Translations under genes and position numbers: made by a program | Notes under the pieces: generated by a model | Databases searched by the model: none | Seen by the model: the letters and a program-made list of their open reading frames with translations, nothing else | What the model was told of the DNA's origin: nothing | Origin: Sabulicella rubraurantiaca | Lineage (GTDB): Bacteria > Pseudomonadota > Alphaproteobacteria > Acetobacterales > Acetobacteraceae | NCBI RefSeq assembly: GCF_017355885.1 | Contig: NZ_JAFEUU010000003.1 | Location: 62,001 to 126,000 of the forward strand | Direction of reading: 5' to 3' | DNA: 64,000 nt | In this document: positions 1,898 to 60,361 of the stretch, piece after piece | Numbering within the stretch: position 1 is the first letter of the stretch | Layout: each line of letters begins with the position of its first letter

Positions 1898-2022
1898 GCG
1901 CGCCGACCGAGAGTCCGGCCGCAACGCGGCCGGCGCCGCCAGACCAACCATTTAGCCGGCGCATCCGACGCGCGGCGAAGCCAAGCGCCGCGGATGCGGC
2001 GCGCCCGGCGACTGAGGGGCAC
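1898..2022 (-). repeat. Dispersed intergenic repeat, copy A
   Basis: Read on the minus strand, this copy runs from a TGCCCCTCA start through CGCCGGGCGC, GCTTGGCTTCGCCGCGC, GGTTGGTCTGGCGGCG and a GGCCGCGTTGCGGCC hairpin to GGTCGGCGCGC. It matches copies at 29818, 32227 and 60240. It begins 27 nt after the aapP stop in the same orientation as aapP, and its other end lies 4 nt from the radC stop. It lacks the first hairpin present in copies B and C. Confidence 0.8.
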
Positions 2023-2041
2023 GAAGGCCAAGCCTTCGTGC
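2019..2041 (-). terminator. Hairpin after aapP
   Basis: A perfect 10-bp stem, GCACGAAGGC pairing with GCCTTCGTGC over a 3-nt loop, lies 8 nt after the aapP stop and touches the start of repeat copy A. It probably ends the aapJQMP transcript. No U-tract is seen. Confidence 0.5.
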
Positions 2042-2049
2042 CGCCAAAA

Positions 2050-2832
2050 TCAATGCCCCCGCAGGATCTGCGAAAGGAACAGCTTCAGGCGCTCGGTCTG
2101 CGGGTTGTTGAAGATCGTCTCGGGCACGCCCTGCTCGACGATCTCGCCGCGATCCATGAACACCACGCGATCCGCCACCTGGCGCGCGAAGCCCATCTCG
2201 TGCGTCACGCAGATCATGGTCATGCCGGTGTCCGCCAGCATCACCATCGTGTCCAGCACCTCCTTGATCATCTCGGGATCGAGGGCGGAGGTCGGCTCGT
2301 CGAAGAGCATGATCTTGGGCTGCATGCACAGCGCGCGCGCGATGGCGACGCGCTGCTGCTGCCCGCCCGAGAGCTGGCCCGGATACTTGTTCGCCTGCTC
2401 CGGGATGCGGACGCGGGTGAGGTACTCCATCGCCAGCGCCTCGGCCTCCTTCTTGGGCATCTTGCGAACCCAGATCGGGGCGAGGGTGCAATTCTCGAGG
2501 ATGGTGAGATGCGGGAAGAGGTTGAAGGACTGGAACACCATCCCGACCTCGCGCCGGATCGCGTCCAGCGCCTTCAGGTCGTCGGACAGCTCGATGCCGT
2601 CCACGGTGATGCGCCCTTCCTGGTGCTCCTCCAGCCGGTTGATGCAACGGATCAGCGTGGACTTGCCCGAGCCGGAGGGGCCACAGACCACGACGCGCTC
2701 GCCATGGGCGACGCTGAGGTTGACATCGCGCAGCACATGCAGCGACCCGAACCACTTGTTCACTCGCTCCAGCGAAATGGCGGGCGGCGCATTGGCCTTG
2801 ACGGCCGAGGTGAGGGTTTCGGCGGCGGACAT
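2050..2832 (-). CDS. aapP: General L-amino acid ABC transporter, ATP-binding protein
   Basis: A 260-aa ABC ATPase that powers the Aap amino-acid importer at the inner face of the membrane. Walker [10 protein letters not shown] is at residues 51-59, the Q-loop near 101, the signature LSGGQQQR at 154-161, and Walker B with [12 protein letters not shown] around 174-185. It is closest in sequence to the polar amino acid group (AapP, GlnQ, HisP). It is the last gene of aapJQMP, 11 nt after aapM on the minus strand, so co-transcription is likely. A hairpin and a copy of the dispersed repeat follow its stop. Confidence 0.93.
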
Positions 2833-2843
2833 GCGGGGTCTCC

Positions 2844-57108: not shown

Positions 57109-59169
57109 TTGGCCACCACCGAACCCGATACCCAGCCGCGCGCCGAACCCACGGCGGCGCAGGCAGCCCAGGCCGCCATCCTCGCCCGCCCCGCCACGGA
57201 GGAGCGCCGCATGGCCGACGCCATCCGTGCCCTGGCGATGGATGCGGTCGAGGCGGCGAAGTCGGGCCATCCCGGCATGCCCATGGGCATGGCCGACGCG
57301 GCCACGGTGCTGTGGTCCAAGTTCCTGAAATACGACGCCGCCGATCCGCGCTGGCCCGACCGCGACCGTTTCGTCCTTTCGGCCGGCCATGGCTCCATGC
57401 TGCTCTACTCCCTGCTGCACCTGACCGGGCATGCGGGCATGGGCACCGAGGAGCTGCGCCGCTTCCGGCAGCTGCATTCCCCCGCCGCCGGCCACCCCGA
57501 ATTCGGCGAGCACCCGGCGATCGAGACCACCACCGGCCCGCTGGGCCAGGGCATCTCCACCGCCGTCGGCATGGCGCTGGCCGAGCGCATGCTGGCCTCG
57601 CGCTTCGGCAAGTCGCTGGTGGATCACCGCACCTGGGTCATCGCCTCGGATGGCGATTTGCAGGAAGGCATCTCCCACGAGGCGGCGTCGCTCGCCGGGC
57701 ACCTGAAGCTGGAGAAGCTGACGGTGCTGTGGGACGACAACAACATCTCCATCGACGGCGACACCTCGCTTTCCTTCTCCGAGGACGTGCTGAAGCGCTT
57801 CCAGGCCTATGGCTGGGCCGTCCGCCGGGTGGATGGGCACGACCATCAGGAACTGGCCGGGGCGATGTCGCAGGCGCTGCGCTCGCGCAAGCCGACGCTG
57901 ATCGCCTGCCGCACCATCATCGGCTTCGCCGCACCGAAGAAAGCGGGCACCGCCGCCTCCCACGGCGCGCCGCTGGGCGGTGACGAGATCGCGGCGGCGA
58001 AGTCCGCGCTGGGCTGGAACGCCGAGCCCTTCACCGTGCCCGAGGGGCTGAAGGGGCGCTGGGAGGAGGCGGGCCGCCGTTCCGCCGGCACGCGCCGCTC
58101 CTGGCTGAAGCGCCTCGCCAAGCATCCGATGCGCGCGGATTTCGAGCTCGCCACCGCCGGCAAGCTGCCGGAGAACTGGACCGAGGCGCTGAACGCGCTG
58201 CGCGCGGAATGGGCCGAGGCGAAGCCCAAGCTCGCCACCCGCGTCGCCAGCCAGAAGTCGCTCGAAGCCCTGGTGCCGGCCGTGCCGGAGATGGTGGGCG
58301 GCTCCGCCGACCTCACCGGCTCCAACAACACCAACGTGAAGGGCATCCCGGTGGTGCGGCCGGGCGATTATGGCGGCCGCTTTGTCCATTGGGGCGTGCG
58401 CGAGCACGGCATGGCCGCGGCCATGAACGGCATGGCGCTGCATGGCGGGCTGATCCCGTATAGCGGCACCTTCCTGGTCTTCGCCGACTACCTGCGCCCG
58501 GCGCTGCGCCTCGCGGCGCTGATGCATCAGCGCGTCATCCACGTGCTGACGCATGACAGCATCGGCCTGGGCGAGGACGGGCCGACGCACCAGCCGGTCG
58601 AGACGCTGGCCAGCCTGCGCGCTATCCCGAACTGCTTCGTCTTCCGCCCCGCCGACGCGATGGAAACGGCGGAATGCTGGGAGATGGCTCTGCGCCGCGC
58701 CGACGGGCCTTCCGTGCTGGCGCTCACCCGCCAGGGCGTGCCCGCCCTGCGCGAGGAGGCGGGCGAGAATCGCTGCGCCCGCGGCGGCTACGTGCTGGCG
58801 GAGGCCGAGGGCGGCGAGCGCCAGGTGACGCTGATCGCCACCGGCTCCGAAGTGTCGGTCGCCGTCGCGGCGCGCAAAGCGCTGGCCGAGGCGGGAATCC
58901 GCGCTGCCGTGGTATCCTTGCCCTCTTGGGAACTTTTCGCCGCGCAGGACGTTGGCTACCGGGCCTCCGTGCTCGGCGCGGCGCCGCGCATCGGCATCGA
59001 GGCCGCTCTGCCCTTCGGCTGGGAGCGCTGGCTCGGCGAGCGCTCGGCCTTCGTGGGCATGCAGGGCTTCGGCGCCTCCGCGCCGGCCGAGGCGCTGTTC
59101 GAACATTTCGGCATCACGCCGGCCGCGGTGGTCGCGGCGGCGCGCAAGCTTGTGGAAGGGGATCGCTAG
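57109..59169 (+). CDS. tkt: Transketolase
   Basis: A 686-aa ThDP enzyme moving two-carbon units in the pentose phosphate pathway. Blocks: [20 protein letters not shown] near residue 45, [19 protein letters not shown] near 143, the ThDP motif [19 protein letters not shown] to [13 protein letters not shown] near 180-220, and [20 protein letters not shown] near 425. It starts at TTG 57109 behind TGAGGA; the next in-frame ATG, at 57211, would remove conserved sequence. It is first of tkt-gap-pgk; gap begins 4 nt after its stop. Confidence 0.95.
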
Positions 59170-59173
59170 GACG

Positions 59174-60214
59174 ATGACGGTCAAGGTTGCCATCAACGGG
59201 TTCGGGCGCATCGGGCGCCTCGTGCTGCGCGCGATGATCGAGAGCGGGCGCACCGACGTGGAGTGCGTCGCGATCAACGACCTCGGCTCCGTCGAGGCGA
59301 ATGCCCACCTCTTCCGCTACGACAGCGTCCATGGCCGCTTCCCCGGCGAAGTTCAGGTCGAGGGCGACAGCATCATCATCCGCGCCAATGGCCGGCAGTA
59401 TGCGCCCATCAAGGTGACGGCCGAGCGCGACCCGACCAAGCTGCCCTGGCAGGGCGTGGACGTGGCCGCCGAGTGCACCGGCATCTTCACCAACTCCGAC
59501 AAGGCGGCGCTGCTGCTGCAGGCCGGGCCGCGCAAGGTGCTGGTTTCCGCCCCCGTCACCTGGGCGGAGGCGCATAGCGACGCCTCGGCGCAGGCGACGA
59601 TCGTCTATGGCGTCAACCACAAGATCCTGAAGCCGAGCCACCAGATCGTCTCCAACGCTTCCTGCACCACGAACTGCCTGGCGCCGGTGGCGAAGGTCCT
59701 CCATGAGAAGTGGGGCATCGCCCGCGGCTACATGGTGACGATCCATGCCTACACCGGCGACCAGAACACGGTGGACACGCTGCACAAGGACCTGCACCGG
59801 GCCCGTGCCGCCGCCGTCTCCGCCATTCCGACCTCGACCGGCGCGGCCAAGGCCGTGGGCCTCGTCCTGCCGGAGCTGAAGGGCAAGCTGGACGGCACCG
59901 CCATCCGCATCCCGACGCCCAACGTCTCCCTGATCTCGCTGGACGTGAACCTCAACACGCCGGGCGTGACGAAGGAGATGGTGAACGCGGCGATGAAGGA
60001 AGCCGCGGAGGGCGAGCTGAAGGGCATCCTCGGCTACAACACCGCGCCGCTCGTCTCCATCGACTTCAACCACGACGCCCACTCCTCCACCTTCGATGCA
60101 ACGCAGACGCAGGTGGTGGATGGCGCGCTGGTGCGCGTCATGGCGTGGTATGACAACGAGTGGGGCTTCAGCAATCGGATGTCGGATACGGCGGCCCTCC
60201 TCGGCAAGCTGTAA
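59174..60214 (+). CDS. gap: Type I glyceraldehyde-3-phosphate dehydrogenase
   Basis: A 346-aa NAD(P)-dependent GAPDH. The dinucleotide motif is KVAINGFGRIGRLVLRAMIE at the N-terminus; the catalytic cysteine is in SNASCTTNCLAPVAKVL near residue 158; the partner histidine is in MVTIHAYTGDQNTVD near 185; the C-terminus has MAWYDNEWGFSNRM. It begins 4 nt after tkt and precedes pgk, an order used in glycolysis and gluconeogenesis in alphaproteobacteria. Copy D of the dispersed repeat lies between it and pgk, and may end or stabilise the tkt-gap part of the message. Confidence 0.96.
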   Translation: MTVKVAINGFGRIGRLVLRAMIESGRTDVECVAINDLGSVEANAHLFRYDSVHGRFPGEVQVEGDSIIIRANGRQYAPIKVTAERDPTKLPWQGVDVAAECTGIFTNSDKAALLLQAGPRKVLVSAPVTWAEAHSDASAQATIVYGVNHKILKPSHQIVSNASCTTNCLAPVAKVLHEKWGIARGYMVTIHAYTGDQNTVDTLHKDLHRARAAAVSAIPTSTGAAKAVGLVLPELKGKLDGTAIRIPTPNVSLISLDVNLNTPGVTKEMVNAAMKEAAEGELKGILGYNTAPLVSIDFNHDAHSSTFDATQTQVVDGALVRVMAWYDNEWGFSNRMSDTAALLGKL

Positions 60215-60239
60215 GCGCCACATCCGATTATTTTGTTTG

Positions 60240-60361
60240 TGCCCTCAAACGCCGGGCGCGCGCTCCGCGCGCTTGGCTTTCGCGCCACCACGGGCGCGCT
60301 TGTGACGCGATAAGGTCTGGGCGCGGCGGCCGTCCTTGCGGCCGCACCCTCCGTGGGCGGT
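60240..60361 (+). repeat. Dispersed intergenic repeat, copy D
   Basis: It starts TGCCCTCAAACGCCGGGCGC, then a GCGCGCTCCGCGCGC hairpin, TTGGCTTTCGCGCC, a divergent middle, GGTCTGGGCGCGGCGGCCG, a GCGGCCGTCCTTGCGGCCGC hairpin and CCTCCGTGGGCGG. It is co-oriented with gap, 25 nt after its stop, and ends 30 nt before pgk. Like copy A it lacks the first hairpin of copies B and C. Confidence 0.8.

Follow-up and report, generated by a model that had tools for sequence, protein, structure and literature searches.

We asked what kind of element stands four times just behind a gene in a 64,000-nucleotide stretch of the Sabulicella rubraurantiaca genome (contig NZ_JAFEUU010000003.1, positions 62,001 to 126,000; hereafter the window). 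A preliminary description, made from the sequence alone, had noticed a dispersed structured repeat there and had taken it for either an RNA element of 3' untranslated regions (UTRs) or a mobile palindrome that inserts at gene ends. Our preferred answer, to which we give a probability of about 60%, is that the repeat belongs to a family of short non-autonomous mobile repeats of Alphaproteobacteria and represents its Roseococcus branch, a name by which we mean the copies of the window's own genus (21 genomes searched). We read the window copies as members of an old branch that lacks the ends of miniature inverted-repeat transposable elements (MITEs) and has for the most part been passed on in place at the edges of genes. 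The family appears to be undescribed and unnamed. The earlier remark that no named family matches held good in Rfam 15, which at its curated threshold matched neither the window nor the element in any of 11 named loci (one tRNA was found elsewhere); a permissive Rfam search with one window-family copy and one Azospirillum copy returned sub-threshold hits only, and no description was found in the portions of the literature searched, which covered few subscription papers.

Core hairpin and transposon-like ends

The core of the family, as we would define it, runs from CCCTCA into a hairpin (H1) made of GCC-GG, a variable and nearly always perfect GC stem with usually a TCC loop, and UU-GGC, and is followed by more hairpins. 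Covariation gives this hairpin strong support. In an alignment (A4) of 80 of the 104 listed H1 segments, 68 from the genus and 12 from Azospirillaceae, pairing was present in 98.3% of cells and 107 cells had changed on both sides, against 33.7 after shuffling and at most 27 after sliding; the compensatory base changes on which the preliminary description had staked its structural reading are present in this hairpin. Of the 80 copies, 67 have C-G as the middle pair of the P3 stem and 12 have G-C, the latter including Azospirillum and some Roseococcus copies, and two G-U pairs are nearly invariant (76/80 and 79/80). The P2 stem retained its pairing through 44 sequence combinations among 184 copies. 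A pseudoknot via GCCC/GGGC was considered and dropped, this pairing having zero compensatory changes across the 80 copies.

The core is also found outside the genus. BLAST located the 5' half of the element in Azospirillum and Niveispirillum plasmids. The gene tables of the 14 Azospirillaceae records are incomplete, three having no genes listed near the match; in 10 of the 11 others the preceding gene is co-oriented, up to about 300 nt away. A model of H1 alone had matches in 23 of 289 genomes of the class, spread over 15 families besides the own one, and several of these genomes hold many equally scoring copies (copy numbers in this survey, as in those of the own genome and the genus and in the deeper search of genomes G009 and G016, are lower bounds).

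In some of these relatives the core lies inside a unit with recognisable ends. In genome G035 the unit starts with TACCAGG... and finishes with ...TTGGTA or TTAGTA, between TAA/TAA, TCA/TCA or TTA/TTA. Pairing of ends by script gave 26 pairs, 13 of them with an identical 3-bp TNA (7 of 8 in G035, 4 of 12 in G252 and 2 of 6 in G068), and inspection by eye of Azospirillum units of the form TATC...GGTA showed a TNA duplication in 4 of the 5 copies whose two ends could be read. MITE-like inverted ends together with a target duplication thus occur in distant relatives that share the core, and it is from these features that the mobile reading gains its support. The TNA duplication is reminiscent of the IS1031 group of IS5. 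In G252 (L431-L446), several hairpins at the 3' end vary between copies but remain palindromic. A terminal repeat GCCCTC...GAGGGC proved not to be general, since GAGGGC occurs in 9 of 166 copies (5.4%) against a background of 1.7%.

In some other families the core sits within a MITE-like unit TACC...GGTA (TATC...GGTA in Azospirillum) flanked by a duplicated 3-bp TNA target. We propose that a putative enzyme acting in trans would have moved such units by recognising their ends, perhaps also the folded single strand. Prokaryotic MITEs, as outlined in a review (PMC10969869), resemble the family in being short, intergenic, multicopy and devoid of open reading frames (ORFs), and the distant relatives have inverted ends and a 3-bp duplication in common with them. 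The genus copies differ in lacking both ends and duplication, and a covarying core is here common to several families.

Turnover within the genus and the search for an enzyme

Within the genus, the element was present in 21 of 21 genomes, with at least 1 to at least 94 copies per genome in a first search; a deeper search gave at least 121 copies in G009 and at least 83 in G016, many of them as head-to-tail arrays with a spacing of about 110-150 bp. It was not found in the four genomes of the same family but other genera in the genus survey, nor in the three in the class survey. In G012, the nearest relative, a profile match was present at 21 of 27 anchored loci, some of them weak, and one further locus was recognised by eye; L031 is a clean absence there, and at L016, L032, L040 and L042 the element has been deleted or replaced, or a remnant is left. 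With gaps excluded, the identity between the own genome (G000) and G012 drops from 0.93 in the coding flanks to 0.81 within the element and 0.72 directly behind it. G006 has three copies, and in it the G016/G009 loci are decayed or without a recognisable element. As judged from these sequences, the genus family is old and is mostly decaying or duplicating in place. The copy range of 1 to at least 94, the tandem arrays and the clean presence/absence difference at L031 were also counted in favour of mobility.

At the 25 loci compared between G000 and G012, the P2 pairs comprised 86 unchanged, 10 compensated on both sides, 7 changed to wobble, 14 breaks and 16 gaps, and the stem was at times exchanged as a block. 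These changes fit selection on pairing, and conversion between palindromes could yield the same pattern. The 3' hairpin P4, with 113 unchanged pairs, 2 compensated, 4 changed to wobble and 12 breaks, is thus poorly protected.

Several observations weigh against a mobile origin. In none of the 184 clusters of own-genus and near-relative copies were both MITE ends present; single ends were seen as TACCR on the left in 7 (background 1.9%) and YGGTA on the right in 8. Counting three window loci, 25 of the 30 own-genome loci are shared with G012, and G016 and G009 share 13 of 13, with the tandem number differing at some; therefore no movement is visible in the genus. The whole own-genus unit is linked to the units of other families by the shared 42-nt core only, and a MITE requires its ends alone, which leaves the keeping of a core between families unaccounted for; recognition of a folded single strand or an effect of the RNA are candidates for what keeps it alike. 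Even among distant relatives, only 4 of 12 paired ends in G252 and 2 of 6 in G068 were identical. The enzyme searches point the same way. No Y1 transposase (PF01797) was detected in 20 of the 21 genus genomes, among them the two richest in copies, G009 and G016. PF13340, the sole transposase family sought in G035, G252 and G068, was absent from all three, two of these genomes being 77-80% complete, and none of the seven PF13340 loci of G199 had matching ends, so that no parent insertion sequence was found via PF13340. The own genome has three Y1 transposase matches, L044, L045 and L046, on contigs C14, C19 and C10. The earlier idea of a mobile palindrome at gene ends is favoured by the inverted ends and target duplications of distant relatives; the genus copies lack such ends. 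The own-genus copies are mostly inherited in place and change through tandem duplication and decay.

Palindromic, intergenic, repeated and at times arrayed sequences could also be REP/BIME elements mobilised by a RAYT transposase, or CIR elements, an explanation that we regard as exceedingly improbable. CIR elements are defined by the CcrM (GANTC) methylation site, and GANTC occurs in just 56 of 166 copies here; this count, the absence of Y1 transposases from 20 of 21 genomes and a length of about 105-125 nt instead of 20-40 make both the REP/RAYT and the CIR readings fail. REPs are 20-40 bp long with a GTAG or CGTC tag. They share with our repeat its palindromic, extragenic and arrayed nature, but the conserved unit here has several hairpins and is not a tagged palindrome of that size. 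CGTC REPs are said to have no dedicated transposase (PMC3733652), and a missing enzyme alone therefore does not exclude the REP superfamily. The CIR repeats of Caulobacter, named in PMC10969869, are likewise long intergenic alphaproteobacterial repeats with an inverted-repeat organisation; we set them apart by description, not by sequence comparison. The enterobacterial ERIC/RU repeats (127, 168 and 103 bp; PMC2759123) are similar in length, dispersed and intergenic, but belong to another bacterial class and were compared by description only.

Placement and orientation at gene boundaries

The preliminary description held that the repeat is always placed after a stop codon and co-oriented with the gene. 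In the own genome, a loose pattern found 13 places, 12 of which are elements; a covariance model (R1) built from these 12 gave at least 33 matches at E<=1 and at least 31 below 1e-4 (150 candidates scored). Thirty loci were examined: 26 lie at -3 to 65 nt after a co-oriented gene, 4 are antisense, and none is in a divergent spacer. In a convergent spacer either orientation comes after some stop; part of the rule is therefore forced by geometry, and only tandem spacers inform on orientation. These contain 14 sense and 4 antisense copies in the own genome (p 0.03).

For the relatives, placement was scored in 184 of 237 clusters (own genome 28, relatives 21, named genomes 83, G016 39, G009 13); the others were duplicates, lay too close to the end of a locus or did not have called genes on both sides. 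Genes were called with a home-made scheme using GC by codon position. The named-genome set was retrieved, among the matches listed, with an exact pattern by which a large part of the core is prescribed; Rubritepida, Roseomonas and metagenome-assembled genomes of other labels are among its members. The 184 clusters comprise 79 tandem sense, 49 tandem antisense, 51 convergent, 4 divergent and 1 overlapping a gene. The after-stop rule, true of the four window copies and of 26 of 30 own-genome copies, thus fits the source genome and not the family. Placement without regard to orientation, which the preliminary description had said would speak against its reading, is half realised, with 14 sense to 4 antisense in the own genome and 79 to 49 across all clusters.

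The stop codon precedes the left end of sense copies by a median of 10 nt (<=30 nt in 108/131), and in 33 of the 49 antisense clusters a gap of 4-7 nt separates the left end from the called start. The antisense complement before starts is typically ...TGAGGGCAnAAAnATG, which resembles a Shine-Dalgarno (SD) sequence and contains TGAGGG; the gene starts at several of these loci look, by eye, like those of nrdR, acpS and rsmD. Between the stop and GCCCTCA, distances of 1 nt (15) and 5 nt (17) are the most frequent. The idea that the element supplies the stop codon was rejected, since TAG is used in 26 of 75 near copies and 35 of 101 control stops, without excess.

A second explanation is a cis-acting RNA of mRNA 3' ends and intercistronic spacers, in which a U-rich tract would be the cleavage site and the hairpins would protect against 3'-to-5' decay or stabilise segments of the transcript, as in gap-pgk. 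The sense bias in tandem spacers argues for it (14/18 in the own genome, 46/66 among model-retrieved clusters, p 0.002, and 79/128 overall, p 0.01), as do the covarying H1 stem, a T tract at -8 to -3 relative to the element, the identity of 0.81 in the element against 0.72 in the spacer after it, and retention in the gap-pgk spacer of 11 of 17 readable genus genomes (out of 20 rows; G013, G020 and G017 were not readable). Moreover, the upstream gene is co-oriented at 10 of 11 annotated Azospirillaceae places and at 7 of 7 scored G035 copies. However, the pattern-retrieved named set shows no sense bias (33/62 tandem clusters), and tandem copies in five distant genomes are sense in 10 cases and antisense in 14. 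The placement of 39 scored copies there, others being at contig edges or without called genes, was 5 ++, 5 --, 2 +- and 3 -+ in G252; 2 ++ and 5 +- in G035; 2 --, 2 +- and 1 -+ in G068; 2 ++, 3 -- and 1 +- in G220; and 1 ++, 4 -- and 1 -+ in G199; in G252 it follows neither a gene-end nor an orientation rule. Copies also decay or vanish in sister species, and their number varies from 1 to at least 94 inside one genus. The T tract occurs in sense and antisense classes alike.

The antisense copies bear on this RNA reading. Conservation by context was taken from model-retrieved copies only, because the named-set pattern fixes much of the core. The strand-specific GG/UU is retained in 149 of 156 sense cells and in 35 of 40 antisense cells. 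GU exceeds AC by 39 to 21 cells overall (p 0.027) and by 32 to 14 in model-retrieved copies (p 0.011), both in sense (20 vs 11) and in antisense (12 vs 3) contexts. A wobble signal tied to the mRNA strand is therefore rejected. The asymmetry seems to be a property of the strand of the element itself rather than of the host transcript, which is modest evidence against selection acting solely via mRNA. The proposal of a 3'-UTR element accordingly keeps its gene-boundary placement and its structure, and loses ground to the 49 of 128 tandem clusters that are antisense, mostly just 5' of starts. We consider a cis-acting RNA unlikely as the explanation of the family; a direct mRNA role of the element is possible.

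Conservation that is independent of the direction of transcription would also be expected of a DNA-level site, a protein-binding or chromosome-organising repeat whose sequence is required in either orientation. CCCTCA is invariant though without a supported pairing partner, and the 47 listed clusters of the complete G016 contig C1 are unevenly spread (8, 9, 3, 4, 0, 1, 1, 4, 8 and 9 by tenths). Yet this spread may merely follow core genes, the methylation mark GANTC is present in only 56 of 166 copies, and P2 changes its sequence freely without losing its pairing (44 combinations in 184 copies), a behaviour that speaks for a folded strand being recognised. Such a site is quite improbable.

A composite or tandem intrinsic transcription terminator is more improbable still. 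Perfect hairpins of at least 7 bp directly 5' of the element were seen with 19% of the 131 sense copies, against 6% of the 49 antisense ones and 0-0.8% of controls, and P4 itself forms a strong GC hairpin with AT.CTC behind it. The terminator reading fails, however, because the T run precedes the element and does not follow its hairpins, the consensus after P4 being AT.CTC; the upstream hairpin is also missing from 81% of sense copies, and the element sits within gap-pgk and, when antisense, in gene leaders. At L024, L026, L027, L050, L127, L183 and other loci, the element is immediately preceded by perfect 11-20 bp hairpins that are private to each gene end, and some of these hold the stop codon in an arm or the loop; they look like terminators formed from the gene's own end.

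Both orientations would be put to use if an ancient structured element had turned into a two-way gene-boundary module in Roseococcus, its hairpins shaping 3' ends in one direction and, when flipped, its complement serving as the next gene's ribosome binding site. TGAGGG could then pair with the upstream GCCC and gate translation, a pairing without covariation support; selection on the element's own strand would keep the fold, and the GC stem would be renewed by coordinated swaps of its arms, not by single substitutions. We hold this combination to be doubtful. In the own genus the left end adjoins a stop codon or, in reversed copies, a start codon, the complement then offering the SD-like TGAGGG. 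In the mobile reading, such boundary copies may persist because genes stay unbroken. Sense copies would contribute a generic stem-loop to 3' or intercistronic RNA, and antisense copies may act as a ribosome binding site.

The four window copies and what they mean

Copy A (1898..2022, minus strand) lies 3' of an aapP-like gene, with a model match at 1914-2020 (E 2.6e-14), H1 (P3, GG/UU and P2) at 1980..2009 and P4 at 1915..1933. Copy B (29818..29960, plus strand) follows mltG (match 29841-29944, E 2.9e-15; H1 29852..29878; P4 29926..29942), and copy C (32227..32372, minus strand) follows hbd (match 32245-32349, E 7.4e-16; H1 32312..32338; P4 32246..32264). Copy D (60240..60361, plus strand) lies between gap and pgk (match 60240-60346, E 2.6e-17; H1 60251..60277; P4 60326..60345). 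Both hairpins were located by direct reading on the strand of each copy; the structure of H1 was tested by covariation and P4 is a predicted fold. The positions, strands, order of motifs and stop spacings of 27, 0, 21 and 25 nt given in the preliminary description all agree with direct reading and with the ORF ends next to the copies (2050, 29817, 32394 and 60214). Its gene names fit the NCBIfam matches of the upstream genes, namely a polar amino-acid type ABC ATPase (under all curated cut-offs shown), MltG, 3-hydroxybutyryl-CoA dehydrogenase and type I GAPDH. The four copies align with three hairpins in common, and a 24-nt extra hairpin after TGCCCTCA only in B (29826-29849) and C (32341-32364), so that the two subtypes are real. 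The tail TTCTCCGTCGGCGCG, by contrast, is not general: among 149 copies only about AT.CTC and a weak G-rich stretch are kept. All four exact occurrences of CTTGGCTT in the window fall inside the elements (0.97 expected; at least four in 2 of 100 shuffles). The covariance model scored the four copies at E 2.6e-14 to 2.6e-17 and the next-best match at 0.42, which is partly by construction, all four being among the 12 training copies. Taken as a whole, the earlier interpretation is partly supported.

Four gap-pgk spacers without the element (L081 in G006, L082 in G005, L084 in G007 and L085 in G001) have another GC palindrome, GGGGAGAcAGTGTCTCCCC or similar, which is perhaps a second repeat family. 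Elsewhere in the window, 22826-23102/24584-24860 and 9602-9790/11409-11597 form long inverted repeats that have diverged (74% and 71%); they are probably paralogous genes that run in opposite directions.

The repeat family spans at least 16 alphaproteobacterial families, some branches having the marks of transposons and one old branch being fixed next to core genes such as gap. A constant position after stop codons within one genome need not imply a function at 3' ends. Such a series of branches is suited to testing how a mobile hairpin may become part of operon architecture, and whether mRNA ends or translation are affected.

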